From positions 1 to 58,085 of the forward strand of contig NZ_JTDL01000013.1 of NCBI RefSeq assembly GCF_000802235.1: a stretch of DNA of 58,085 bases, given 5' to 3'. Numbering within the stretch: position 1 is the stretch's first letter; each line of letters starts with the position of its first letter. Source of the stretch: Sinomonas humi (lineage in GTDB: Bacteria > Actinomycetota > Actinomycetes > Actinomycetales > Micrococcaceae). Below the pieces are notes generated by a model. That model made no database searches and had not been told where the DNA came from. It saw nothing but the letters and a program-made list of their open reading frames with translations. The position numbers and the translations under genes are program-made. Shown piece by piece: positions 16,762-31,828 of this stretch.

Positions 16762-17070
16762 CTAGAGCTTGATTTCGATGTTGACGTCCGCGGGCAGGTC
16801 GAGGCGCATAAGCGAATCGACGGCCTTGGGGGTCGGATCGATGATGTCGATCAGCCGCTTGTGCGTGCGCATCTCGAAGTGCTCGCGGCTGTCCTTGTAC
16901 TTGTGCGGAGAGCGGATGACGCAGTAAACGTTCTTCTCCGTGGGCAGCGGCACGGGGCCGACCACCGTTGCGCCTGCGCGCGTGACCGTCTCAACGATCT
17001 TCCGAGCCGAAGTATCGATGACCTCGTGGTCATACGACTTCAGCCGGATGCGGATCTTCTGTCCCGCCAT
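16762..17070 (-). CDS. rpsJ: 30S ribosomal protein S10 (also NusE)
   Basis: Part of the 30S head and, as NusE, of antitermination complexes with NusB and NusG. The start at 17070 gives [24 protein letters not shown], the normal 102-aa protein; an in-frame ATG at 17085 would add five residues (MRVED). The remaining signature [45 protein letters not shown] is complete. It is the first gene of the S10 operon. Confidence 0.97.
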
Positions 17071-17608
17071 ATCCTCAACTCGCATTCAGTCATGTGCACT
17101 GTTCGGTTTCAGCTATCCGTGGCTGCCGAGGCATTCAAGGTCGAGGCCACCACAGGCCGCACTGACTGAATCCGGGCATCCCCGGGTTCCTCAATCAGCC
17201 GGCCCTCCGACCCCCGCGGTCGGGCGTGTCGCAACTTGCACACGCACATACCCGTAGCTTCTCTGCGGAGGTGGGTCATATTTGGGCTCCAGCTTGGACC
17301 CTGCACCCGGCATTATCCGGATCGGGACACGAAGGAGCGCTTGAACAACTCATCTAGTGTGCCAGAGATCGGCGGATAAGAGAAATCCGCGGAAGATGGC
17401 CCCCGCTCGACCAAGCGCGAAGGGCCGGGCTCAAGCCCGAAGAGTAGTCGAGTCCAGACTACGGAAGAAGTTCGACCACGATGCGGATGAACACTTGCCT
17501 ATCTTGCGGCTTCCTTACTAGTTTCAGTTACGGAAAGTCATTAGGGATCCTAATTGAATGCTGCGGGGGCTCCGGAACCTCTGCGGCCTCACCGCAAAGG
17601 GCACACCC
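17071..17608. other. Divergent intergenic region between rpsJ and the aroA-like operon
   Basis: About 540 bases without a convincing gene. Toward rpsJ it should hold the S10 promoter and leader; several GC hairpins are visible (for example the CCCGG-centred palindrome at 17170-17210). A minus-strand GGATAAT (17312-17318) is only a weak -10 candidate. Toward the plus strand a better promoter motif is listed separately. An ATG at 17558 could extend the fusion gene by 17 residues, but those do not look like AroA sequence. Confidence 0.6.
17495..17524 (+). promoter_or_regulatory. Candidate promoter of the aroA-like/ligase operon
   Basis: TTGCCT (17495-17500) and TAGTTT (17519-17524) are separated by 18 bases. 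This matches the sigma-70-like spacing and lies about 85 bases upstream of the preferred ATG at 17609. No operator was recognised. Confidence 0.4.
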
Positions 17609-20600
17609 ATGCATCTCTCCGTCCTAGGAACGGCCGCGCCCGTCAAGGGCGAGGTACTCGTCCCCAACTCGAAATACCACGCGCACAGAGCACTCATCCT
17701 CGCGTCCCTCGCACCCGGGGTCAGCCGCATCCGGGGGCTCACGGACGCCCGCCACGTCCAATACACCGTCGGGCTCCTCCGCGGACTCGGCACCCGGATC
17801 GACGTCGTCGGCGATACCTTCGTCGTCGAGGGCGGCCCCTACCGCCCGCGGCGCGAGTCGGTCTCCGCCGGAAGCTCCGGCACCACCCTGTACTTCATGG
17901 TCGGCCTCGCCTCACTGAGCGAATCCGACGTCGTCGTGACGGGCCAGAAGTACTTCCAGCGCCGCCCCATCGGCCCCCTCCTAGCCGCCCTGCGGCAGAT
18001 GGGCGCGGACGTTTCCTCGCCCGACGACTGCCCGCCGATCCGCGTCCGGGGCCAGCGTCCCACCGGGGGCGACGTCCACATCGCAGGCACCCTCTCCCAG
18101 TGGATCTCCGGGCTCATCCTGCTCGCCCCGTTCGCGACGGGCCCGACAACGATCACGGTCGAGGGTGAGTTCAACGAGCGCACCTACATCGAGCTCACGG
18201 TCAGCATGATGCGCCAGTTCGGCCTCCACGTGAACGTCTCCGAGGACTGGCGCCACTACGAGATCGAGCCCAACCAGGTCCCCGTCCCCACGGACCTGGT
18301 GATGCCGCCGGACATTGGCTCGGCAGCCTTCGGGCTGGCCGCCGCAGCCCTCCAGCCCGCCGACGTCGTCCTGCACGGCCTGCGCAAGACGAGCGCCGGC
18401 GAGTCGGACCACCCTGAGTCGGACTTCCTCGACATCGTGAGCGCCATGGGCCTGCCGATGGCGTACGACCCCTCAGTGGACGCCGTGCGCGTCAAGCACG
18501 ACGGGCTGCGTCTCTCCCCCATCGAGGTGGACTGCCGCACCGTCCCCGACATGCTGCCGATCCTCTCCACGCTCGCGACGTATGCCGACGGCGAGAGCGT
18601 CTTCCGCAATGTCGCCCACGTTCGCCTCAAGGAATCGGACCGCGTGGCGGCAATGCTGCAGCTCAACAGCATGGGCGGGGACCTCCGCATCGACGGCAAC
18701 GACCTCCGCGTCCGCGGGGTGCGTCGGCTCGTCGCCGCCGACCTCTCCTCGTTCAACGACCACCGCGTCCTCATGTCACTCGCCGTCGCCGCCTCCGCGG
18801 CCGAGGGCCGCTCGACGCTCACCTACCCGAACGCCTACCGGATCTCGTACCCCGAATTCCTCACGGCCATGAACTCGCTCGGGCTTTCCATGCGGGTCGA
18901 GGACGGGCCCGTCAGGCGCCCGGAGCCCAAGAAGCCAGCGGCGCGCGCCTCCCGCGACAACCTCCACCGCATCGCCACGCAGCGCGACGTCGACACCGCG
19001 GCCGCCGTTCCGGCTTCTGACTGGGTCCGGCGATGGGCCGCCGAGAAGCCCAACGCAAGCGCCGTCGTCGCCATTCGCCCCAGCGTGACCGAGCATCGCA
19101 CGTGGGCTGAACTCGACGAACGCGCCGACCGCATCGCCATGCTCCTGACCAAGCTCGGCGTCCAGGCGGGCGACCGCGTTGCGGTGCAGCTGCCCAACCG
19201 CGCGGAGTTCGTGGGATGCGCCGTCGCCGCGGCTCGCATCGGGGCGGTCATCGCACCGATCATGCCGATCTTCCGCGAGCGCGAAGTCTCCTTCGCGCTC
19301 CGCCGGTCGCAGGCGAGCGTCATCATCCTTCCTTCGTCCTTCCGCGGGCGCCGGCACGCCGAGGAGCTCGCCTCGATCCTGCAGGGCGAGGACGACGGCG
19401 GGTCGGGCCTCCCGCTTGCGCTGCGGCACGTCGTCGTCATCTCCGACGACGACGCAGCGAACGTGGGCACCGCAGGTCAAGGCACCGGTGAGAACGGACC
19501 GCAGTGGCACGACTGGGACGAAGCGCTCGCCGGCGTCGTCGTCGACCGAGATGCCCTCGACGCCCTCGCACCCGACGCCTCGGTGCACGCCCAGCTCCTC
19601 TTCACGTCCGGCACCTCGGGCGAGCCGAAGGGCGTCCTGCAGCGGCATTCCGTGCTGAGCCGGGCCGCCGCCATGGAGGCCCGCCACCTAGGGCTCACGG
19701 GCGACGACACGATCTACATCCCCTCTCCGCTCGCACACCAGACCGGCTTCCTCTACGGCATGTGGCTCGCCTTCGTGCTCGGTGCACCTCAGGTGGTCCA
19801 GGAAGTGTGGGACCCCCAGCGTGCACTCGATGCGATGCAGGGCTGGCGGGCGACGTTCGTGCAGGCGGCCACGCCGTTCCTCATGGACCTCGTCAAGAAG
19901 GTCGAGGAGACTGGCCAAGTGCCCGAGAGCCTCCGCATCTTCGTCGCGACCGGCGCCGCCGTGCCGCGAGCGCTCGCCGAGCGGGCCACGAGGGTGCTCG
20001 GCGCCGCAGTGTGCGGCGCGTTCGGCACGACTGAGACGTGCCTGGGCGCCCTCGCCACCCCGAGCGATGAGCCGGTCAAGATGTGGGGAACGGACGGGCG
20101 CATGCTCGAGGGCGTGAAGCTCCGGATCGTGACCGACGACGGCCAGCCCCTCCCGTCCGGGGTCGAGGGGAACTTCGAACTCAACAGCCCGACAATGTTC
20201 GAGGGCTACCTGGACCGGCCGGATCTCACGGCCGCCGCGTTCACCGAGGACGGGTGGTACCGCACCGGTGACCTCGGCATCATCGACGACGCTGGCTTCC
20301 TGCGCATCACCGGCAGGGTCCGCGACGTCATCAACCGCGGCGGCGAGAAGATCCCGGTGGCCGAGATCGAGCAGCTCCTGTTCGAGCACCCCCTCGTCGA
20401 GGACGTTGCCCTCGCAGCCATCCCCGACGAGCGGCTCGGCGAGCGCGCGTGCGCGTTCGTGGTGCCGGCGGCGGACGGCACGCTCACGTTCAAGGAGATG
20501 CAGGAGTATCTGGACGCGCACCAGGTCTCCAAGCACTACTGGCCGGAGCGGCTCGAAATCGTGGACGCCCTCCCCCGCAACGCGGTGGGCAAGATCCAGA

Positions 20601-20668
20601 AGTACCTGCTGCGGGATCGGGCAAGGAACCTGACGCCTCAGCGGACAGACCAGGGAGGAAGCAAGTGA
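17609..20668 (+). CDS. EPSP-synthase-like domain fused to an acyl-CoA ligase
   Basis: One 1019-aa protein holds two enzymes. Residues 1-430 are AroA-family: K22, R27, G91, R119, S163-Q164, D314, K341-E342, R345 and D384-H385-R386 match EPSP synthase. The positions equivalent to E. coli S23, N94, S169, N336 and K411 are Y23, S89, L162, H337 and I412. Normal EPSP synthesis is therefore doubtful. Residues 456-1010 are an AMP-forming ligase with the P-loop FTSGTSGEPKG (about 665), GAFGTTE, YRTGDLG and the catalytic lysine in RNAVGKIQK (about 994). I chose ATG 17609 for its AAAGGG site at 7 bases and AroA-like numbering; ATG 17558 is the alternative. By analogy with ansatrienin starter-unit genes, it may eliminate a hydroxyl from shikimate (or its phosphate) and load the product onto CoA. 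Function is inferred. Confidence 0.85.
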   Translation: MHLSVLGTAAPVKGEVLVPNSKYHAHRALILASLAPGVSRIRGLTDARHVQYTVGLLRGLGTRIDVVGDTFVVEGGPYRPRRESVSAGSSGTTLYFMVGLASLSESDVVVTGQKYFQRRPIGPLLAALRQMGADVSSPDDCPPIRVRGQRPTGGDVHIAGTLSQWISGLILLAPFATGPTTITVEGEFNERTYIELTVSMMRQFGLHVNVSEDWRHYEIEPNQVPVPTDLVMPPDIGSAAFGLAAAALQPADVVLHGLRKTSAGESDHPESDFLDIVSAMGLPMAYDPSVDAVRVKHDGLRLSPIEVDCRTVPDMLPILSTLATYADGESVFRNVAHVRLKESDRVAAMLQLNSMGGDLRIDGNDLRVRGVRRLVAADLSSFNDHRVLMSLAVAASAAEGRSTLTYPNAYRISYPEFLTAMNSLGLSMRVEDGPVRRPEPKKPAARASRDNLHRIATQRDVDTAAAVPASDWVRRWAAEKPNASAVVAIRPSVTEHRTWAELDERADRIAMLLTKLGVQAGDRVAVQLPNRAEFVGCAVAAARIGAVIAPIMPIFREREVSFALRRSQASVIILPSSFRGRRHAEELASILQGEDDGGSGLPLALRHVVVISDDDAANVGTAGQGTGENGPQWHDWDEALAGVVVDRDALDALAPDASVHAQLLFTSGTSGEPKGVLQRHSVLSRAAAMEARHLGLTGDDTIYIPSPLAHQTGFLYGMWLAFVLGAPQVVQEVWDPQRALDAMQGWRATFVQAATPFLMDLVKKVEETGQVPESLRIFVATGAAVPRALAERATRVLGAAVCGAFGTTETCLGALATPSDEPVKMWGTDGRMLEGVKLRIVTDDGQPLPSGVEGNFELNSPTMFEGYLDRPDLTAAAFTEDGWYRTGDLGIIDDAGFLRITGRVRDVINRGGEKIPVAEIEQLLFEHPLVEDVALAAIPDERLGERACAFVVPAADGTLTFKEMQEYLDAHQVSKHYWPERLEIVDALPRNAVGKIQKYLLRDRARNLTPQRTDQGGSK

Positions 20669-21861
20669 CCATCACCAGCATCAGTCTCGACGGGCGAGGA
20701 AGCGCGCTCCCCGAGGCAGAGTACGAGCAGCTCAAGTCCGACGTCGATGCTTGGGTGAGGGGGCCGGGCGAGGCTTGGGCGGAGCGCATCGAGGCCTCCG
20801 GCGAGGTTCCCGAGGAGCTGTGGACCGAGCTCAAGGAACATGGCTTCCTCTCCCTCGCCGCTCCCGTTGAGCTGGGCGGGCGCGGGCTGAGCTTCGTGCA
20901 GTGGATGGGCCTCATGGAGATCTTCTCCCGCTCGCACGCGTCGGTGCGCATGATCGTGCACGTCGTGAACGGCACGTGGCGCGCCATGAACCCGTTCGCG
21001 AACGAGGCTCAGCGCGATCGCTTCATCAAGCCCTCGGTCGCGGGCGACATCAAGGTGGCCTTCACCCTAACGGAGCCCGGCAACGGGACCGGCGCGGACA
21101 TCACGAGCACCGTCCGGCGCGAGGGCGACACCTACTACCTCACCGGCCGGAAGCACCTCATCACCTTCGGCGTCAGGTGTGACTACTGGCTCCTGTTCGC
21201 CCGGCTCGAGGGCAGCACGGGCAAGCACGGCACCGTCGCGCTCCTCGTCGACCGGCACGCGCCGGGCGCCACCGTGATCGATACGTCCGAGACCATGGGC
21301 GTGCGCGGCACGGACCACGCCGAGCTCGTCTTCGCCGACACCCCCGTTCCCGTGGCCAACCGCCTGGGCGAGGAAGGCGAGGGCCTCGCCGTCGCCCTCG
21401 GAGGCTTCCTCACGCCGAGCCGCATCTCGGTGGCGATGAGCTGCGTGGGCCTCGCAGAGCGCGCCCAGGAGCTCGCCGTCGAGTACGCCCTGCGCCGCGT
21501 GACGTTCGGCAAGCAGCTCGCCGAGCGCCAGGCCATCGCGTTCCAGATTGCCGAGAACGAGGCGGACATCGAGGCCGCGAAGGCCCTCGTGCTCCACGCG
21601 GCCGAGCAGTGGCAGGAAGGCCGTGAAACCGCGAGCGCGCTCTCCTCCATGGCCAAGATGACCGCCGTCGACATGCTCACGCGCGTGACGGACAAGGCCC
21701 TGCAGGTCCATGGTGGACTCGGGTACTGGAAGACCCAGACCATCGAACGCGTGTACCGGGACGCCCGGGCGCAGCGTTTCGAGGAGGGCACGAACGAGAT
21801 CCAGAAGACTGTCGTGGCGCGGGACGTGTTCCGCCGCGCCGCCGTGAAGGAGTCGAAGTGA
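20665..21861 (+). CDS. Acyl-CoA dehydrogenase, AnsJ-like
   Basis: An FAD-dependent acyl-CoA dehydrogenase of 398 aa. It has the FAD/substrate segment AFTLTEPGNGTGADITSTVRR, the RVTFGKQLAERQAIAFQIAENEADIEAA helix, LQVHGGLGYWKTQTIERVYRDAR, and the catalytic glutamate in RFEEGTNEIQ (about residue 372). The GTG start overlaps the fusion stop by 4 bases (GTGA) and has GGAGG at 6 bases, so the two are coupled. In this context it may introduce or isomerise a ring double bond on a cyclohexene-carboxyl-CoA intermediate, as proposed for its ansatrienin-cluster counterpart. General fatty-acid oxidation is the alternative, but no enoyl hydratase or beta-oxidation set adjoins. Confidence 0.9.
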   Translation: MTITSISLDGRGSALPEAEYEQLKSDVDAWVRGPGEAWAERIEASGEVPEELWTELKEHGFLSLAAPVELGGRGLSFVQWMGLMEIFSRSHASVRMIVHVVNGTWRAMNPFANEAQRDRFIKPSVAGDIKVAFTLTEPGNGTGADITSTVRREGDTYYLTGRKHLITFGVRCDYWLLFARLEGSTGKHGTVALLVDRHAPGATVIDTSETMGVRGTDHAELVFADTPVPVANRLGEEGEGLAVALGGFLTPSRISVAMSCVGLAERAQELAVEYALRRVTFGKQLAERQAIAFQIAENEADIEAAKALVLHAAEQWQEGRETASALSSMAKMTAVDMLTRVTDKALQVHGGLGYWKTQTIERVYRDARAQRFEEGTNEIQKTVVARDVFRRAAVKESK

Positions 21862-22679
21862 CGGAGAAGGTCCACGCAGACAAGATCGCCCTCATCACAG
21901 GGGCCTCCCGGGGCATCGGGCGGCAGCTCGCCGAACAGCTCGCCTCGGGCGGCGCGAAGGTCGTCGTCAACTACAAGAAGAACGTGGGCCTCGCCGAGGA
22001 CGTCGTCGAGCGGCTCAAGGAGCTCGGCGGCGACGGCATCGCCGTCCAGGCCGACGTCGAGAATCCCGAGGACATCGTCCGCCTGTTCGATACCGTCGCG
22101 GAGACGTACGGCCGGCTCGACTACTTCGTGAACAATGCTGCCGCTGCCGCGTTCAAGCGCGTCATGGAGCTGCGCACGCACCACCTCGACCGCTCCTACG
22201 CCATGAACGTGCGCCCGTTCGTCCTCGGCAGCGAGGAGGCGGTCAAGCTCATGGACCAGGGCGGCCGGATCGTCGCAGTCACCAGCTACGGCAGCCACCG
22301 CGCGTTCCCGACGTACGCTGCGCTCGGTTCCTACAAGGCCGCGATCGAATCCTTCGTCCGCTACATGGCGGTGGAGTTCGCCCCGTACGGCATCAACGTG
22401 AACGCCGTAAACGGCGGCCTCATCGATTCCGACTCGCTCGAGTACTTCTACAACGTGCCCGGGCAGGCTCCGATGGATACGGTCATCGCCAAGATCCCGA
22501 AGGGGCGGCCGGGCACCATCGCGGACATGGCGAACGCGATCGAGTTCCTCCTCTCGCCCAATTCGGACTACATCACCGGGCAGACCCTCGTGGTCGACGG
22601 CGGCATGACAGTTGCCGCCCCTCCCTACTTCCACGAGACGAGCGAGCCGATCAGCATCCCCGAACGGCCCACCCGCTGA
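21858..22679 (+). CDS. Enoyl-thioester reductase of the SDR family, ChcA/FabL-like
   Basis: A 273-aa short-chain dehydrogenase/reductase with NAD(P)-binding ALITGASRGIGRQLAEQL. The catalytic pair is Y153-x6-K160 (TYAALGSYK), the spacing of FabI/FabL enoyl reductases rather than the YxxxK of ketoreductases. VNNAAAAAFKRVMEL and VNAVNGGLIDSDSL resemble FabL closely. This suits reduction of 1-cyclohexenylcarbonyl-CoA to cyclohexylcarbonyl-CoA, the ChcA step. The GTG start overlaps the dehydrogenase stop by 4 bases. A role as a housekeeping enoyl-ACP reductase is less likely given its neighbours. Confidence 0.85.
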   Translation: MTEKVHADKIALITGASRGIGRQLAEQLASGGAKVVVNYKKNVGLAEDVVERLKELGGDGIAVQADVENPEDIVRLFDTVAETYGRLDYFVNNAAAAAFKRVMELRTHHLDRSYAMNVRPFVLGSEEAVKLMDQGGRIVAVTSYGSHRAFPTYAALGSYKAAIESFVRYMAVEFAPYGINVNAVNGGLIDSDSLEYFYNVPGQAPMDTVIAKIPKGRPGTIADMANAIEFLLSPNSDYITGQTLVVDGGMTVAAPPYFHETSEPISIPERPTR

Positions 22680-24700
22680 TGACCGCGCGCGCGTTCACGC
22701 CGGTGCACATCGGCACGCTCGAGTTGAAGCACCGGATCGTCATGGGTTCAATGCACCTCAACCTCGAGCGGACCGACGACGGCGGGGCCGCGCTCGCCCA
22801 GTTCTACCGCGAACGCGCGCTCGGCGGTGCCGACCTCATCATCACCGGCGGCGCCGCCGTCAGCCGGGAGGGTGCGGGGGGCCGGACCTACGCGCTCGTC
22901 AACGAGCCGGAGTCCGCCCCGGCCCTCGCCCGCGCCGTGACCGCCGTCCACGAGGCCGGCGGCCACCTGGCGCTGCAGCTCTTCCACGCGGGCCGGTACG
23001 CGTTCGAGGCGACATTCGGACTCAGGCCGCTCGCGCCGTCGTCCGTCTACAGCCGCTTCTCACGCTGCGAGCCGGAGGCGATGGACGAGGAGCAGATCCA
23101 ACGCACCATCGCGGACTTCGCGGCGGGAGCGCTCCGAGCAAGAGAACTCGGCTTCGACGCCGTCGAAATCATGGCGTCCGAGGGCTATCTCATCAACCAG
23201 TTCGTCTCCCCGCTCACCAATCTGCGGGACGATGCGTGGGGCGGCGACGCCGAGCGGCGGCGCCGCTTCCCGCTCGCCGTACTGGGCGCGGTGCGTGACG
23301 CGGTGGGCGCAGACTTCCCGGTCATCGTGAGGACCTCGGGCACGGACCTTATGGAGGGCTCAAGCAGCGACCGAGAACTCGATGACCTCGCCGTCGCCCT
23401 CGTCGCCGCCGGAGCCGACGCGCTCAACGTGGGTATCGGCTGGCATGAATCCTCGGTCCCCACCGTCCAGGCCCTCGTGCCGCACGGGCACTGGCTCGGC
23501 GTCGCCCGCCGCGTGCGCGAGGCCGTGCGCGCTGCGGGGTTCGAGGCGCCGATCGTCGCTTCGAACCGGGTGAACTCGGTTCCGCTCGCTGACGAGGCCC
23601 TCGCGCGCGGGGATGCGGACCTCGTGGCGATGGCCCGCCCATTCCTTGCCGACCCGCGGATCGTCTCGACGTCCCGCGCGCGCCGGCTCGAGCTGGTCAA
23701 TACCTGCATCGGCTGCAATGAGGCGTGCCTCGACCGCTCGTTCGGGGACGAACCGGTCTCGTGCCTCGTCAATCCGCGGGCCGGGCGCGAGCTCGAGTAC
23801 CCGCCGATTCCACTCCCTGAGGCGCCCGCGCCCAGCGACGAGCCTGGGGCAACGGCTTCCGTCGAACGTCCGGGGCGGGTCGCCGTCGTCGGAGCCGGCC
23901 CAGCTGGGCTCCAGGCCGCCGCGACCCTGGCCGCAGCCGGGATGCGGGTGGACCTGTACGAGGCCGCCGACGCAATCGGGGGCCAGTTCCAGCTCGCGGG
24001 GAGCGTACCCGGCAAGGCGGACTTCCTCGAGACCATCCGGTACTTCGAGAACCTCCTGCCCGCTCTCGGGGTCCGGGTGATCACGGGTACGCATGCTGCG
24101 GCGTCCGATCTGGTGGGTTACGCGCACGTCGTTGTTGCGACCGGCGTCCTTCCCAGGGCTGTGCACGTGGCCGGCGCGGAGCTGGGGCACGTCATGGACT
24201 ACCGGCAGGCTTTCGCCGAGCCCTCGGCGGTGGGCCGCCGGGTTGCCATCATCGGTGCCGGGGGAATCGCCGTCGACCTCGCCCACCTGCTGGCCGAAGC
24301 CGACCCCGAGCGGGAGATCACGATCATGCGGCGGAGCGGGCGCATCGGCGCGGGGATCGGCCCCTCGACGCGCTGGGCTGTCCTCGCGGAACTGCGTGCC
24401 GCCGGCGTGCGGACGCTCACCGGCGTCGTCTACGGCAGGATCACGGCCGACGGCGTCGAGATCACCGACGCGGACGGCGCGCTCGAGCTCGTCCCCGGCG
24501 ACACGGTCATCCTCGCGGCGGGCCAAGAACCCCATGTCACCCTGGCCTCGGAACTCGCCGGCGAGGGCGTCCCGCACACGGTCATCGGCGGAGCGCGGGA
24601 CGCGAGCGGGCTCAACGCCGTCCGCGCGTTCGACGACGGACTCCGCGCCGGAACGGCCGTCGCCGCGCTGCTCACCGGGGCGGCCGCCCCGGCCCGGTGA
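22679..24700 (+). CDS. FadH-like 2,4-dienoyl-CoA reductase (FMN, 4Fe-4S, FAD), AnsM-like
   Basis: A 673-aa multi-cofactor reductase. Residues 1-340 form an Old Yellow Enzyme barrel (HRIVMGSMHLNLE, GRYAFEATFGLRPLAPSSVYS, IMASEGYLINQFVSPLTNLRDD). C343, C346, C350 and C362 have exactly the CxxCx3Cx11C spacing of the FadH iron-sulfur cluster. The C-terminal half has FAD and NAD(P) Rossmann motifs VAVVGAGPAGLQAA and VAIIGAGGIAVDLA. FadH reduces 2,4-dienoyl-CoA with NADPH; here the likely substrate is a cyclohexadiene-carboxyl-CoA. The ATG overlaps the SDR stop by one base. No second FadH-like gene is present. Confidence 0.9.
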   Translation: MTARAFTPVHIGTLELKHRIVMGSMHLNLERTDDGGAALAQFYRERALGGADLIITGGAAVSREGAGGRTYALVNEPESAPALARAVTAVHEAGGHLALQLFHAGRYAFEATFGLRPLAPSSVYSRFSRCEPEAMDEEQIQRTIADFAAGALRARELGFDAVEIMASEGYLINQFVSPLTNLRDDAWGGDAERRRRFPLAVLGAVRDAVGADFPVIVRTSGTDLMEGSSSDRELDDLAVALVAAGADALNVGIGWHESSVPTVQALVPHGHWLGVARRVREAVRAAGFEAPIVASNRVNSVPLADEALARGDADLVAMARPFLADPRIVSTSRARRLELVNTCIGCNEACLDRSFGDEPVSCLVNPRAGRELEYPPIPLPEAPAPSDEPGATASVERPGRVAVVGAGPAGLQAAATLAAAGMRVDLYEAADAIGGQFQLAGSVPGKADFLETIRYFENLLPALGVRVITGTHAAASDLVGYAHVVVATGVLPRAVHVAGAELGHVMDYRQAFAEPSAVGRRVAIIGAGGIAVDLAHLLAEADPEREITIMRRSGRIGAGIGPSTRWAVLAELRAAGVRTLTGVVYGRITADGVEITDADGALELVPGDTVILAAGQEPHVTLASELAGEGVPHTVIGGARDASGLNAVRAFDDGLRAGTAVAALLTGAAAPAR

Positions 24701-24756
24701 ACTCCGGCTCTGCCTGGCCAATAGCCAAGCCGCTCACTCGGCGCGATGATAGGCCC

Positions 24757-26196
24757 ATGCCTCGCGCCGCCGTCGACCGTCTGGCAGCCCTGCTGCCCCC
24801 GGGCTTCACGCTCGGGGTCGCCACGGCCGCCTTCCAGATCGAGGGCGCGGTCGACGACGACGGTCGCGGACCGTCGGGGTGGGACACCTTCGCGCACTCC
24901 CCCGGCATGATCGCCGAGGGCGCCTCGCCTGACATCGCCGACGACCACTACCACCGGGCAGACGAGGACCTAGCCCTTCTGGCACGTCTCGGCGTCGACG
25001 CCTACCGGCTCTCGATCGCGTGGCCACGCGTCCAGCCGGATGGCCGCGGAGCGTGGAACGAGAAGGGCTGGGCCTTCTACGAGCGCCTCCTCGACGGCCT
25101 GCTCGAGGCCGGAATCCGCCCCCTTGTGACGCTCTACCACTGGGACACCCCTCTTCCCCTCGAGAGGGAAGGTGGGTGGCTCTCACGCGGGACGGCGGAG
25201 CGGTTCGCCGACTATGCCGCAGAGGCAGGGCGACGGCTCGGCGACCGCGTGGGCCAGTGGATCACGCTCAACGAGCCGGCCACCGTCACGCTCAACGGGT
25301 ATGCCCTCGGGGTGCACGCACCGGGAAGGCAGCTCCTCTACGACGCCCTCCCGACCATCCACCACCAGCTCCTCGCGCACGGCCTGGCGGTTCAGGCGCT
25401 GCGGGCGTCGACGGACGGCGGAATCGGGATCACGAACCTCCACTCGCCCGTCTCGGCGAAATCGTGGCGGCCGTTCGACCGGCTGCACGCGGGGCTCTTC
25501 GACGTCATCTTCAACCGCCTGTTCGCCGACCCCGTCATCCTCGGCCGATATCCCCGGGTTCCATGGTTCGCGAAACGCGATTTCGCACCGCTCCTACGCG
25601 CCGTACGCCCCGGCGATCTCGACCTCATCCGCCAGCCACTCGACTTCTACGGGCTCAACTACTACTACCCCATGCGGATCGGGGCAGGAGCGGCGCGCAC
25701 CGCAGCGGTGCCGGTCGGGAACCACCCCCAGCTGGCCGCGCTAAAGCGCCTGCCGTTCCACCTCGCGGACTTTCCCGAGCTACCACACACCGGATTCGGC
25801 TGGCCGATCGCGCCGGCCCATCTGGGCACACTGCTCGCCCAGATGCGAGACCGTTACCGCGACGCGCTTCCCCCTGTGCTCGTGACCGAGAACGGCGCGA
25901 GCTTTCCTGAACCCGAGCATGCCGACGGACCGATCGACGACAGCGAGCGGATCGATTACCTCGCCGCCCACCTCGAGTCGGCACTCCTGTCAGTAGCTCC
26001 TGGCGCCCCAGCAGAGGGCGTGCAGCTTGCCGGCTGGTTCGTCTGGACCCTACTCGACAACTTCGAGTGGGCCGAGGGCTACACCCAGCGCTTCGGGCTC
26101 GTGCACGTGGACTTCGACACTCTCGAGCGGACGCCCAAGGCCTCGTTCGAGTGGCTCCGGCAGCTCACCGCGGCACGCGAACGGACCCCGGCGTAG
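24757..26196 (+). CDS. GH1 family beta-glucosidase
   Basis: Hydrolyses beta-glucosides (or related beta-glycosides) in the cytoplasm; no signal peptide. The N-terminus LPPGFTLGVATAAFQIEGAVDDDGRG is the GH1 signature. Acid/base glutamate is in ITLNEPATV and the nucleophile in PVLVTENGAS. Sugar-binding ASN/trp segments YHWDTPLPLE and GWFVWTLLDNFEWAEGY complete the fold. I chose ATG 24757; an earlier GTG at 24697 adds an atypical extension. It starts 56 bases after the FadH-like gene on the same strand and could be read through from that operon, but a functional link is only a guess. Its stop touches the end of the converging small gene. Confidence 0.9.
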   Translation: MPRAAVDRLAALLPPGFTLGVATAAFQIEGAVDDDGRGPSGWDTFAHSPGMIAEGASPDIADDHYHRADEDLALLARLGVDAYRLSIAWPRVQPDGRGAWNEKGWAFYERLLDGLLEAGIRPLVTLYHWDTPLPLEREGGWLSRGTAERFADYAAEAGRRLGDRVGQWITLNEPATVTLNGYALGVHAPGRQLLYDALPTIHHQLLAHGLAVQALRASTDGGIGITNLHSPVSAKSWRPFDRLHAGLFDVIFNRLFADPVILGRYPRVPWFAKRDFAPLLRAVRPGDLDLIRQPLDFYGLNYYYPMRIGAGAARTAAVPVGNHPQLAALKRLPFHLADFPELPHTGFGWPIAPAHLGTLLAQMRDRYRDALPPVLVTENGASFPEPEHADGPIDDSERIDYLAAHLESALLSVAPGAPAEGVQLAGWFVWTLLDNFEWAEGYTQRFGLVHVDFDTLERTPKASFEWLRQLTAARERTPA

Positions 26197-26337
26197 CTAC
26201 TCCCCGCGGTTCGCCCTGCGGATGCGGCGCGCGCGCTCGATCTCGTTCTTGAAGTTCTTGCGGATGCTGAAATAGCCGCCCACGATCACGATGAGCAGAG
26301 CGATGACGATTATCCAGGCCACGGCGGCCTTCCTCAC
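26197..26337 (-). CDS. Small single-span membrane peptide (46 aa)
   Basis: GTG at 26337 has GGAG at 7 bases and gives a short peptide with one hydrophobic helix (VAWIIVIALLIVIVGGYFSI) followed by a basic tail KNFKNEIERARRIRRANRGE. This is the layout of small integral membrane proteins with a cytoplasmic positive end. Function is unknown. A longer reading upstream overlaps the coding frame of the giant membrane protein and does not look real. Confidence 0.6.
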   Translation of the reverse strand: MRKAAVAWIIVIALLIVIVGGYFSIRKNFKNEIERARRIRRANRGE

Positions 26338-26368
26338 TAGGGTGCTCCGGGCTGCCCGGTTGACGTTC

Positions 26369-29300
26369 CTACCGTAACAGCGTGCCGCGCGAGGCGCGCA
26401 GAAGCCACCAGACAGCCGCCCCGACAAGAGCAAGGCCGAGGGCGGCGAGCAGCAGATACGGGTAGGCACGGACAGCCCAAAGGACGCAGGCGAGCACCCC
26501 GACCCCGCCCCACGCCGCGAACCTGCGGTCCGCTGCCGCAAGTCCCGCAACGGTCAGGCCGACGAACACCAGAAGCAGCCAGATCTGCCGGGCAGCGTCC
26601 GCTTCGGGTGCCGAGACGAGGCCCACGAAGCTCGCCGTCCCGGCCGCAACGGTGAGCCATCGTTGGCCCACCCGGCGGCCATTTCTGCGATCACCGGCTA
26701 TGTAGCGCAGCAGTGCTATGACGGCCGCGGCGGCGACGTACCACTGGACGAGCCAGTACATGCTGGGCTCATCGTCGGCGAAGACCGCACGTTGCGTTGC
26801 CGCCAGCACGACGACGCTGCCGAGTTCTGCTGATGCCCTCCGCCAGCGTTGGGGTACCTCGGAGACGACGAGCGCGACGAGGGCGGCCGCGAGAGCAGGA
26901 AGCAGATGCGCCGCGGGCCGGTCCCACGAGGCCAGCGCTGGCAGGATCAGGGCGAGTCCGGCCCCGGCGGCGAGGGACCAGCGGCGGACTGGATCGATCG
27001 CGAGCTGGACGACCGGCGCGGTGAGGTGCTCGTCGCCCCTCAGCCACAGAGGCGCCCAGCGGAGTGCGAGCCCGACGCCGGCCGGAATCAGGCCTCCGAC
27101 GAGCAACGGCAGCACGTACCTCCACGGCGCAGACTCCCCTTCGAACACGCTCGTCCCGGCCGCGATCCCGGCCATGAGGAACCCCAGAACGCCCGTAGGA
27201 AATGTCGCTTCCGTCAGACCAGTGATGCTGCGCCACACCCAGCTGGCCGTGACGAGGACCGCGGCCCCGGCGCTGAGGGCGAGGCTCAGGACCCACGGCT
27301 CCTCGCCGAGAGCACCGATGAGCCCGGCAGACGCAAACAGCAGTCCGCCGGTGGTCCACGGCCAGACAGCGGGGCGCAGTCCGCTTTCACGCTGCTCTGG
27401 GCTGCCCCGTCTGGGCGCGCCGCCCCAACGGCCGAGGCCGAACGCGTGCGCACCCGCGAGCGCGGCCGAGGCGAGTACGAAGCCCAACGAAGAGAGGAGG
27501 GGCTCCGATAGTGGCTGGCCAGCTGGGAACGGGAAGGCTGGCCCAAGCCAGATCAGCGCAAGGAATGCGGCACTGGCCGCCCCGTCGCTGGCCCGCGGAT
27601 GCTCGCGCAGTGTCGCCACCGCCGAGGCCGCGGCAAGTGCCGTTTCGACCAATAGGACCCACCGCCCGCCGCCCGCTTCGTTTCGGGATGTGAAGGCGTA
27701 GGCGATCGGCAGGGCAAGCTGGGCCGCCAACGCGCTCCAGTATGCCGCGCTCTGGAACGGGAGCCCCGGCGTCGTTCGCTGCAGCAGGCGGCGCACGGCG
27801 TGCTGCAGCGCAAGCCCGACAGCGAAGACGAGGCTCAGCACGGTCGGCGAGGCGGTCGCGTCGTGCGCGACGAGCCCCGCCAGGATGAGAGGCAGCGCCC
27901 GGGCCGCGAGAAGGTGAATGCCGCGAAGCCTGATCCCGGGGGCGAGGTACACCATCGCGGCTGCATAGGCGGCCGAGACCCCTACTGCGATCTCGAGGAC
28001 TCGCAGGTCGCCGCGGGCAGCCACGGGGATCAGGGTCAGTACGGCGGGCAAAAGGGCCAGTGCGGCGGGGCGACGGCGGAGCACGACGCCGGACGTCGCG
28101 GCGCCGACCGTCAGCCCCACACAGAGAAGCGAAGTCGGAAGACCGAGGGAGCGAGGACCTCCGAGCCATTCCGTCAGGCTCGCCAGCATTGAGGCAGCGG
28201 TCGCTAGGCCAAGGGTGACCGTCACGTCTTCAAGCGCCCAGCGCGCCTCGGCGCCTCTGGCGGCTGCCGCCTTGGTGGCCCTTCGGGCCGCCGCCGCGAG
28301 CGGGACACAAAGCTGGGCGAGGGTGACGGCAGCGAGAATCTGCCACCCCGAGACTGGCTGGCCACCGACGTTCAGCCTCCACCCTTCGCGGCCAAGAGCG
28401 TGGAAGACCCCGAGGGCGAGGAGGATCCCCGCGATCCGAGTAAGCCACACGTAGGCCAAACGGCCCAGACTGCTTGGCAGGCGCAACGCTGAAGCGCCCA
28501 GTACGAGTGTCAGCACGCACAGAACCGAATTGGCGATACCCCACTGGTTTGCCAGGTACCCCTCGCCCGCAAGAACGGCCAAAAGGCTCGGCGGAACGGC
28601 GACGCAGAGGAGCGCGCCTCGCTTGCGCTCTTCGTCGCCCCTCGTGAAAACCGCCGAGAGTGCCACGCCTGCTCCGCAGACGAACGCTACAGTCACGGCA
28701 TAGACGACCCAGCCCGTCGCCGTCACGGCCACTAGGCCGCAGCCGATAGCGGCCGCCGCGGACATGATCACGAGAGCCGCAGGACGGCCGAATTCGGCGA
28801 GACCGCGAACTCGTAGCAGCGCTGAGAGCAGGAGCTGGGCGGCGGCAACGCCAGCGAAAGCGGTGCCCAGGACTACCTCACGGCCGAGAGCGTCCCATAC
28901 ACCGGGCCCGCAGGCATCCACCACAGCAGGCACGGCGAGAAGGGACGCGTAGCGTGCCGCCGCCACCAACTGAGTCTGATGCCAAGGACGTCCCGCGATC
29001 GGCCGAGGATTGCGAGGCCGTCTAGCACGGATGAGCCAGTACACCGCTCCCCACCCGACAACCACGGCAAAGGGAACACGCCCCATCGACCCGTGCGCGA
29101 TCACGAGGACGGCATAAGCTGCGCACGGAAGCCACTCGGCCACCCGACCGTGCCACCACGCCACGACTTGGGCGGCCACGAGCAGTGCCGCCGAGGACCA
29201 AAGCACGGCACCGCTGCCAAGGCGACCGTCCGCCGTGTCTCCCAGAACGCCCGTCACGGCCAGCAAAGAGATCAGACCGACCGCCGACGCCTGCTCGATA

Positions 29301-30517
29301 CCAATGTGGCCGCGCTTGAGCCCCACCCGGGCCTCGAGGCGATCTCCGAGGAACACGACGAGGAAGACCTCGCCGGATAGGGTCACGGCCGCGGCCGCGA
29401 TCGCGGCCGCGAACGGATCCGCGCCGTTCCCCAGCCATCCGAGGTCGGCGGCTTGGGCGAACCCGGAAGCCGTCGCGAGGGCTGCCGTCGCCCGTGCGCC
29501 CCACCATGAAAGCCGGCGCACGAGCGCCGGGCCCCGCACCAGAGCGGCCACGGAGAGGGAGGCACACACGGCGGCCACCAGTGCGGGGTACTGCCAACGC
29601 TCCAAAGTCCCGGACGCGATCGTTGCCGCGACCAGCACCGCGGGGGCCGCGAGCGGATGCACACGGACAACGGGACGCAGATAGGCCCGCGGAATCCATC
29701 GCGGACGAACGAGCGCGAGGACCCCCATGGCGGCCGACAAGACAAGGAGGGCCGCCAGATCAACGGCGAGGGCACCACCGAGCGCCGCAGCACCGGACCA
29801 CGCCCCAGAGAACGCAAACGTGAGCGACGCGTAGACAAGAATGCGGCTCTCAAGCCGAACCGCCGCCATCCCGAACGCTATGAGCCCAAGAACGCTCGTC
29901 GCGAACCAGGTCAAGGCAGGACTGCGTACGGCCAGAACGTCGACCGCGAGACCAGAGACCGGCAGAAGCGCGAGTCCCGTGCCGGTGAACGCCACCGCAG
30001 CCGGCCGGAGACGTGGTACGCGTGGGTGCACCACCAGGCCGGTCGCATAGAACAGCGCCGTGACCGTGAGCAGGGCGACGAGTCGCAGGGCATCGCCCAC
30101 GGCGCTCGCGAGGAACAGCGCAGCAGCCGCGACGAACAGGAGAGTCGCCGCGTACAGCGCGATGTTCGCGTTCAGCATTCCGCGGCGCCGGCGACGGCGG
30201 GCGGCGTCCTCGTCGTCGTACCTCTCGGAGCTGGGCTTCAGGGTAGGGGGATGCGCAGGGCGCGGCCCGCGGGGCAGCGGCGGCGCCGCTGGCGGGCGGA
30301 GGAATGGCGCTCTGCCTTCGACAGGCGGCCTCGCTCGGGGTGGTTGTGGCGGGGCCGGAGCCGAAGGCGCAGCGCTTGCCGCAGAACGGTCCTCCCAGCC
30401 AGCACGATGCCCCTCGATGAACCCAGCCCGGTGCCCCTGCAGGAAACCTTCGCGTCGCCCGACTTCGAGCCCCTCCGCGTAACCCGCGTCGAATTCGGAA
30501 GACCTGGTTACCATCAT
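26369..30517 (-). CDS. Giant polytopic membrane protein with an N-terminal GX3-repeat helix
   Basis: About 1382 aa; I do not know a named function. It opens with eight glycines spaced every four residues (GYAEGLEVGRREGFLQGHRAG and on to GHRAGWEDR), a GX3 pattern as in Yae1/FliH-type helices. A proline-rich linker (about 40-110) and an arginine patch RRRRRRG follow, then some thirty or more hydrophobic segments to the end. Little soluble domain is seen. Start: ATG 30517 or 30514 just after GAGGGGGA; an upstream reading to 30562 is unlikely. Similar giant membrane proteins of unknown role (DUF2157/DUF2339-like) occur in actinobacteria, but the family is not confirmed here. It is read toward the small gene at 26197. 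Confidence 0.75.
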   Translation of the reverse strand: MMVTRSSEFDAGYAEGLEVGRREGFLQGHRAGFIEGHRAGWEDRSAASAAPSAPAPPQPPRARPPVEGRAPFLRPPAAPPLPRGPRPAHPPTLKPSSERYDDEDAARRRRRRGMLNANIALYAATLLFVAAAALFLASAVGDALRLVALLTVTALFYATGLVVHPRVPRLRPAAVAFTGTGLALLPVSGLAVDVLAVRSPALTWFATSVLGLIAFGMAAVRLESRILVYASLTFAFSGAWSGAAALGGALAVDLAALLVLSAAMGVLALVRPRWIPRAYLRPVVRVHPLAAPAVLVAATIASGTLERWQYPALVAAVCASLSVAALVRGPALVRRLSWWGARATAALATASGFAQAADLGWLGNGADPFAAAIAAAAVTLSGEVFLVVFLGDRLEARVGLKRGHIGIEQASAVGLISLLAVTGVLGDTADGRLGSGAVLWSSAALLVAAQVVAWWHGRVAEWLPCAAYAVLVIAHGSMGRVPFAVVVGWGAVYWLIRARRPRNPRPIAGRPWHQTQLVAAARYASLLAVPAVVDACGPGVWDALGREVVLGTAFAGVAAAQLLLSALLRVRGLAEFGRPAALVIMSAAAAIGCGLVAVTATGWVVYAVTVAFVCGAGVALSAVFTRGDEERKRGALLCVAVPPSLLAVLAGEGYLANQWGIANSVLCVLTLVLGASALRLPSSLGRLAYVWLTRIAGILLALGVFHALGREGWRLNVGGQPVSGWQILAAVTLAQLCVPLAAAARRATKAAAARGAEARWALEDVTVTLGLATAASMLASLTEWLGGPRSLGLPTSLLCVGLTVGAATSGVVLRRRPAALALLPAVLTLIPVAARGDLRVLEIAVGVSAAYAAAMVYLAPGIRLRGIHLLAARALPLILAGLVAHDATASPTVLSLVFAVGLALQHAVRRLLQRTTPGLPFQSAAYWSALAAQLALPIAYAFTSRNEAGGGRWVLLVETALAAASAVATLREHPRASDGAASAAFLALIWLGPAFPFPAGQPLSEPLLSSLGFVLASAALAGAHAFGLGRWGGAPRRGSPEQRESGLRPAVWPWTTGGLLFASAGLIGALGEEPWVLSLALSAGAAVLVTASWVWRSITGLTEATFPTGVLGFLMAGIAAGTSVFEGESAPWRYVLPLLVGGLIPAGVGLALRWAPLWLRGDEHLTAPVVQLAIDPVRRWSLAAGAGLALILPALASWDRPAAHLLPALAAALVALVVSEVPQRWRRASAELGSVVVLAATQRAVFADDEPSMYWLVQWYVAAAAVIALLRYIAGDRRNGRRVGQRWLTVAAGTASFVGLVSAPEADAARQIWLLLVFVGLTVAGLAAADRRFAAWGGVGVLACVLWAVRAYPYLLLAALGLALVGAAVWWLLRASRGTLLR

Positions 30518-30574
30518 TCCCCCTCGGACGATTAATCCACTCGTTGGAATAATAGGCGACAAGAAAACCCCGCC

Positions 30575-30604
30575 GCAATCCTGCGACGGGGTTTCCTCAG
30601 CTAA
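30575..30604 (-). terminator. Intrinsic terminator after tuf
   Basis: Reading leftward, AAACCCCGTCGC pairs with GCGGCGGGGTTT around a six-base loop, followed by TTCTTGT. It starts 33 bases after the tuf stop and is the only hairpin here with a U-rich tail, as expected of a strong intrinsic terminator for a highly expressed gene. Confidence 0.9.
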
Positions 30605-30637
30605 GGCCTGCTACCGGCCCCCAAGATCTCGAAGAGA

Positions 30638-31828
<1,191 letters not shown>

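Follow-up and report, generated by a model that had tools for sequence, protein, structure and literature searches.

The DNA analyzed here, contig NZ_JTDL01000013.1 of Sinomonas humi (58,085 nucleotides; 'the window' denotes this whole stretch), belongs to a Sinomonas genome assembled to 4.4 Mb in 156 contigs (GCF_000802235.1). Between positions 17609 and 24700 its forward strand carries four overlapping genes that are candidates for the synthesis of a six-membered-ring acyl-CoA from shikimate. The first gene (17609..20668) encodes a 1019-residue fusion of a domain resembling 5-enolpyruvylshikimate-3-phosphate synthase (EPSPS; approximately residues 1-440, PF00275) with an acyl-CoA ligase (approximately residues 455-1019, PF00501 and PF13193). 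It is followed by an acyl-CoA dehydrogenase of 398 residues (20665..21861; PF02771, PF02770 and PF00441), a short-chain dehydrogenase/reductase (SDR) of the FabL type with a Y-x6-K motif that is ChcA-like in class (21858..22679), and an FMN and Fe-S dienoyl-CoA reductase of the FadH or old yellow enzyme (OYE) type (22679..24700; Oxidored_FMN and Pyr_redox_2). All four reading frames are intact with zero internal stops, start with ATG, GTG, GTG and ATG in that order, and overlap successively by 4, 4 and 1 bases, the overlaps being those that a first-pass annotation of the window had described. The four enzyme classes named in that annotation are likewise borne out by Pfam domains, motifs and best solved relatives. 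Its four-gene operon holds for this set but overlooks a fifth gene in the same direction, a glycoside hydrolase family 1 (GH1) beta-glucosidase at 24697..26196, which overlaps the fourth gene by 4 bases and scores 490 bits against TIGR03356 (cut-off 478.5). In S. susongensis (locus L005), the nearest named relative with 98% over the EPSPS-like domain, the cassette is likewise followed by a GH1 relative (980 bits).

The ligase domain contains the motifs TSGTSGEPKG, YRTGD and PRNAVGKI, and its best NCBIfam model is the cyclohexanecarboxylate-CoA ligase TIGR03208 (463 bits, below the cut-off of 792). AliA is the best named family for this domain, yet the identity is only about 41% (annotated plasmids searched) and the TIGR03208 score falls short. 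The acyl-CoA dehydrogenase has EEGTNEIQ at residue 373, with EGT kept and a glutamate that we take to be catalytic; its best solved relative is 5lnx (218 bits). The SDR has YAALGSYK at residue 153 and no Y-x3-K motif, with FabL 3oic as best solved relative (194 bits) and a score of 259.8 bits against the NCBIfam FabL model (cut-off 328). For the OYE the best match is 1ps9, the 2,4-dienoyl-CoA reductase of E. coli (469 bits); cysteines spaced C-x2-C-x3-C-x11-C at 343, SEGY at 167 and GIGWHE at 252 are kept, and with them what we take to be the Fe-S ligands and the catalytic Tyr and His of FadH.

The EPSPS-like domain and its active site

The fusion protein scores 273 bits against PF00275, and its EPSPS-like part passes the aroA model TIGR01356 (314.8 bits; cut-off 287.25) at 29% identity to E. 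coli EPSPS. Because the host encodes a separate AroA of its own at C88, the EPSPS-like gene is additional to it; two further PF00275 genes in the host are MurA-like by eye.

The active site was aligned across 80 named relatives and later across 114, the additional 34 coming from a whole-protein search with an E cut-off of 1e-100. Similarity and short peptide patterns guided the choice of the 80, so that invariance at such patterns is overstated for them; the added 34 were not picked by peptide patterns. With EPSPS (AroA) the domain shares its fold family and the equivalents of Lys22, Arg27, Arg124, Gln171, Asp313, Lys340, Glu341 and Arg344, kept in 114 of 114 relatives, and of Arg386, kept in 113 (one gap); the Tyr200 equivalent is kept in all 80 named relatives. 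It differs from EPSPS in the fused CoA ligase and in three active-site positions. S23Y and S197E are fixed in all 114 relatives, and the Lys411 equivalent is absent from every one, being replaced by Ile in 111, Val in one and Gly in one, with a gap in the last. Ser94, Phe101 and His336 also occur in all relatives aligned (N94S, P101F and N336H relative to EPSPS; the E. coli chain used is a variant at 101, where the Klebsiella chain has Pro). The Ser169 column is a gap in all 114, and the same alignment gap affects the host AroA, so the state of this position is uncertain.

The host AroA serves as the internal comparison. Ser23 and Ser197 are both present in it and its Lys411 stretch has the sequence TSKTMPEF, which makes Tyr23, Glu197 and the loss of Lys411 diagnostic of the EPSPS-like domain; its remaining residues at the compared positions are Leu94, Phe101, His200, Glu313, His336 and His340. 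We take Ser197, together with Ser169, to contact the 3-phosphate of shikimate 3-phosphate (S3P), and Lys411 to contact phosphoenolpyruvate (PEP). A glutamate at the Ser197 position argues against a phosphate, so the substrate would be unphosphorylated shikimate and the chemistry an elimination. Since the active-site changes are fixed and the host keeps its own AroA, the domain is probably not an EPSP synthase but the enzyme of a first 1,4-elimination, in which the C3 oxygen and C6 proton would be lost to give 3,4-dihydroxycyclohexa-1,5-dienecarboxylate. To our knowledge, no enzyme has been assigned to the start of the shikimate-to-cyclohexyl route.

Spread and genomic setting of the cassette

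Loci were surveyed at the best 80 of 194 contig-level relatives of the EPSPS-like gene, all of them named, using the stretch fetched around each. A ligase, a dehydrogenase and an OYE accompany the EPSPS-like gene at 57 of the 80 loci, and 44 of these 57 also hold the SDR, which places the gene order far from chance. Sorted by completeness, 44 loci have all five functions, the SDR alone is missing from 13 and the OYE alone from 9, and 14 hold fewer, several of them at contig ends. The EPSPS-ligase fusion itself is found in 97 of 114 relatives, the other 17 being split, broken or ligase-less. Two loci have an EPSPS-like gene without a ligase (L083, 9908-11275; L076, 9947-11353), the former in Lentzea beside nonribosomal peptide synthetase (NRPS)-like genes and a relative of clavaminate-synthase-like dioxygenases. 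In Microbacterium elymi (L082, 9776-17212) the cassette genes are split over several frames, reflecting either decay or sequencing errors.

At the level of genomes, the EPSPS-like gene is present in 30 of 295 Micrococcaceae, including 3 of 15 Sinomonas (the window genome counted), and in 34 of 299 Microbacteriaceae, the family of M. elymi. Thirty of these 34 were examined: 28 hold the complete set of five, in one case with the OYE spread over two frames, and the other two end at contig ends. Carriers of the cassette also include Arthrobacter luteolus, A. koreensis and Cellulomonas timonensis. A phylum-wide sample gives 5 of 396 genomes including that of the window, the other four being unfused with no OYE seen nearby. 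This patchy presence suggests gain and loss of the cassette. No match to the EPSPS-like domain was found on plasmids at E values up to 1e-50. A separate actinobacterial family (L122-L124 and L155) has an unfused set of EPSPS-like gene, ligase, dehydrogenase and SDR and branches first in a weakly supported tree. The first-pass annotation knew of no report of such an operon in the family, and no open paper was found that describes the cassette in Micrococcaceae or an EPSPS-ligase fusion, although subscription papers are sparsely covered and absence is unproven. By the Micrococcaceae count, the cassette is not unique within the family.

Upstream of the cassette of the window, on the opposite strand, is the S10 ribosomal operon, with rpsJ at 16762-17085 (read by eye). 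Downstream, past a 1397-residue membrane protein, are genes that correspond to tuf and fusA in size and order, and in S. susongensis L005 a relative of EF-Tu was confirmed. At this rpsJ-tuf junction (window 17086-30640) the cassette stands between rpsJ and the large membrane-protein gene in Sinomonas and between the large gene and tuf in 11 Arthrobacter relatives, so that the junction looks like a repeated insertion site. The large protein (26369-30562, reverse strand) has approximately 29 hydrophobic segments and no Pfam match, and its Arthrobacter relatives at the same junction are approximately 1700-2000 residues long and 34-45% identical over parts. It was considered as a component of the system and is treated as a neighbor, given the lack of a Pfam match and the position of its Arthrobacter relatives on the other side of the cassette.

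Ansamycin-type neighbors and ketosynthases

At five of the 80 loci, all in Streptomyces (L034, L036, L039, L041 and L052), the cassette adjoins an NRPS adenylation domain and relatives of 3-amino-5-hydroxybenzoate (AHBA) synthase, RifL and amino-3-deoxy-D-arabino-heptulosonate 7-phosphate (aminoDAHP) synthase. The names RifL and aminoDAHP synthase are presumed ones, given to members of the Gfo/Idh family and of the class II DAHP synthases, and the identity of the AHBA synthase was checked in L041 alone (1b9h/1b9i, approximately 635 bits). The L041 contig continues into a polyketide synthase (PKS) whose first ketosynthase (KS) is preceded by an adenylation domain and a carrier domain and which also has two ketoreductase stretches, an order that we take to fit an AHBA loading pattern, the place of the first ketoreductase being presumed. 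In ansatrienins an alanyl side chain bears the cyclohexanecarbonyl group, in keeping with an NRPS beside the cassette. Cropp and colleagues are said to have described, in 2000, the cyclohexylcarbonyl-CoA genes of the ansatrienin producer, ChcA and AnsJ-M; these comprise the same enzyme classes as the Sinomonas operon, and it is a related fused cassette that stands beside the AHBA synthase relatives at the five loci. A DAHP synthase gene near some cassettes was considered as proof of shikimate feeding and rejected, since the relatives of AHBA synthase and RifL that accompany it suggest the aminoDAHP synthase of an ansamycin cluster.

Three further loci of the 80 have modular PKS genes and two have a FabH relative; altogether, a KS, AHBA, modular PKS or FabH gene occurs at 41 of the 80. 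Enzyme class, AHBA-type ansamycin neighbors and frequent ketosynthases thus support the central proposal of the first-pass annotation, a route of the ansatrienin kind from shikimate to cyclohexyl- or cyclohexenylcarbonyl-CoA. At two Lentzea loci (L063 and L084) the full cassette comes with NRPS-like genes, a divergent KS and a dioxygenase of the TauD type that is akin to arginine/enduracididine hydroxylases; they possibly make an undescribed cyclohexyl-bearing peptide. One L042-type and one L023-type Streptomyces locus have permease, ROK, peptidase, saccharopine-dehydrogenase-like and DNA-repair genes and one unmatched open reading frame as neighbors, and no PKS cluster was found among these scanned neighbors.

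A FabF-like KS lies in the fetched stretch at 31 of the 80 loci, 30 of them alignable and one too short. Fifteen of the aligned 30 fall into one clade that takes in the KS of Microbacterium L013, to which the rest of the clade is at 60-62%. The Cys-His-His residues are kept in all 39 KS aligned (30 from the loci, 7 others and 2 from the window genome). All 13 genomes with a cassette lacking the SDR (11 Arthrobacter and 2 Cellulomonas) encode an SDR elsewhere at 69-73%, and in 6 of 6 examined (L116-L121, cassette-positive genomes only) this SDR adjoins a relative of AMP-binding ligases and a KS at 71-73% to that of L013; Pfam domains of this SDR-ligase-KS operon were checked in L118.

Predicted product, outlet and alternatives

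Taken together, these features point with good confidence to an acyl-CoA pathway from shikimate whose product would most likely be cyclohexane- or cyclohexenecarbonyl-CoA. After the predicted elimination, the fused ligase would form the CoA thioester, and the FadH-type OYE, the Y-x6-K SDR and the acyl-CoA dehydrogenase would carry out ring reductions and re-oxidations between losses of water. The acyl-CoA would then prime type II fatty-acid synthesis via FabH to give omega-cyclohexyl fatty acids. As a whole, this explanation from operon through ring acyl-CoA to fatty acids is likely.

The outlet was examined in the window genome. Its two full-length KS matches are FabF, which by gene order sits in a fabD-fabH-acpP-fabF cluster, and a paralogue, neither falling in the dedicated clade; four other PF00109 matches are short and weak. 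With only two full-length KS matches, the genome shows no modular PKS. Since neither a modular PKS nor a dedicated KS is seen, ordinary type II fatty-acid synthesis leading to omega-cyclohexyl fatty acids is the likeliest outlet, at about an even chance. The second KS (C9) was rejected as a dedicated enzyme, being 43% identical to that of L013 versus 51% to its own FabF. Of the two FabH enzymes in the genome, the second has counterparts at a level of at least 95% in 3 of 3 cassette-positive versus 0 of 12 cassette-negative Sinomonas genomes (two of the 12 have a relative at 58-59%); it was rejected as a dedicated consumer because it tracks the operon within Sinomonas and not across the family. 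Elsewhere in the same genome (L099, 1871-5610, reverse strand), an OleA-like synthase labeled as 3-oxoacyl-ACP synthase III lies beside a protein with an OleC-related C-terminal part, a pair that may represent long-chain olefin genes.

Known systems offer a precedent for a lipid outlet. In the asukamycin producer, cyclohexanecarbonyl-CoA also feeds omega-cyclohexyl fatty acids, which make up 3.1% of the total according to a review (PMC4147253), and this priming makes membrane lipids the simplest outlet. There the acyl-CoA serves both a secondary metabolite and fatty acids, whereas no antibiotic genes were recognized beside the Sinomonas operon. Omega-cyclohexyl fatty acids are also reported from Alicyclobacillus, Sulfobacillus and Curtobacterium (PMC3035248, PMC4378227 and PMC5118839), where a shikimate-derived ring is the fatty-acid starter, as proposed here; the likeness drawn is one of product. 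Among papers containing both 'Sinomonas' and 'cyclohexyl', none concerns Sinomonas lipids by title, and Sinomonas fatty-acid reports in general were not searched. We know of no omega-cyclohexyl lipid in Sinomonas.

A number of findings weigh against this interpretation. The ligase, dehydrogenase, SDR and OYE all score below curated cut-offs (among the models listed; best 25 where more matched), and because none of these models is passed, the ligase and genes 2-4 are not demonstrated members of textbook families. Phe101 and His336 are not diagnostic, as the host AroA has both, and position 94 differs from E. coli in the host AroA too (Leu). The PEP-site arginines of the EPSPS-like domain are intact, which makes a PEP-dependent variant possible. 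Unlike the ansatrienin genes, the Sinomonas operon stands alone with a single SDR, and the two are likened by class and context. It is not obvious where the GH1 gene would act in the route. No dedicated KS was found among the PF00109 matches of the window genome, which leaves the outlet there uncertain, and the second FabH occurs in 5 of 30 Micrococcaceae genomes with the EPSPS-like gene versus 47 of 265 without it. Among the loci, half of the 30 aligned KS fall outside the L013 clade and, with 32-39% identity to it, resemble it no more than they resemble ordinary FabF. Of the 30 Microbacteriaceae stretches just one shows a KS, which belongs to the dedicated clade.

The same acyl-CoA could instead have another outlet, priming or decorating a small specialized metabolite whose genes lie elsewhere in the genome, or being released as free acid or, through the GH1 enzyme, as glucoside. 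The coupling of GH1 to the operon and the ansamycin, modular PKS and NRPS settings of relatives are in line with this, and still it is unlikely: the window genome shows two full-length KS matches and so no modular PKS (NRPS genes were not searched for there), and queries for PKS, NRPS and KS gave no match beside the L005 cassette. Slightly less probable is a partly reduced product, cyclohexenyl- or dihydroxycyclohexenylcarbonyl-CoA, in place of the saturated ring. The enzyme set is not fixed, as the cassettes lacking only the OYE (9 of 80) or only the SDR (13 of 80) indicate, and in six OYE-less Arthrobacter, Specibacter and Paenarthrobacter genomes the best OYE elsewhere is 45-46% identical; the window, however, holds the full set, and each of the 13 genomes without the SDR in the operon encodes one elsewhere. 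An operon of the Ali/Bad type that degrades cyclohexanecarboxylate or shikimate, suggested by the affinity of the ligase domain to AliA, the shared acyl-CoA dehydrogenase and SDR classes, and thiolase and fadB relatives near the cassette at six loci (L010-L012 and L015-L017), is improbable. It would offer no place for an EPSPS-like domain or a FadH-type reductase, the AliB model TIGR03207 reaches 126 against a cut-off of 575, the SDR is of the FabL type, and cassettes occur in ansamycin settings. A duplicated shikimate-pathway AroA fused to a ligase by happenstance would explain the passing TIGR01356 score and the several active-site residues kept, but with another AroA in the host and S23Y, S197E and the Lys411 loss across all 114 relatives it is highly improbable.

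With the shikimate-to-fatty-acid route as the preferred explanation, a broader and more tentative reading joins its parts. The EPSPS-like domain may represent a new activity in the EPSP synthase superfamily, that of a shikimate 1,4-dehydratase with unphosphorylated shikimate as its substrate. The fixed Glu at the Ser197 position (approximately residue 190) would replace the contact to the S3P phosphate and serve as the general acid for the C3 hydroxyl. Combined with the ligase and the three redox enzymes, and in many species also with a dedicated FabF-like KS and a second ligase, it might form a mobile module for ring-tipped fatty acids that extends across soil actinobacteria and uncultured Eremiobacterota, beyond the acidophiles to which such lipids were mostly ascribed before.

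The class of pathway is already known; of interest are its stand-alone form and a fused, remodeled EPSPS-like first enzyme with a fixed signature. With just four genes in an operon, a host genus from soil that can be cultivated and distinctive fixed changes in the active site, the first step of the route becomes directly testable. If the proposal is correct, the operon would offer compact access to the doramectin starter unit, and ring-tipped fatty acids, instead of being chiefly a hallmark of acidophiles, would be membrane lipids that have been overlooked in common soil actinobacteria.

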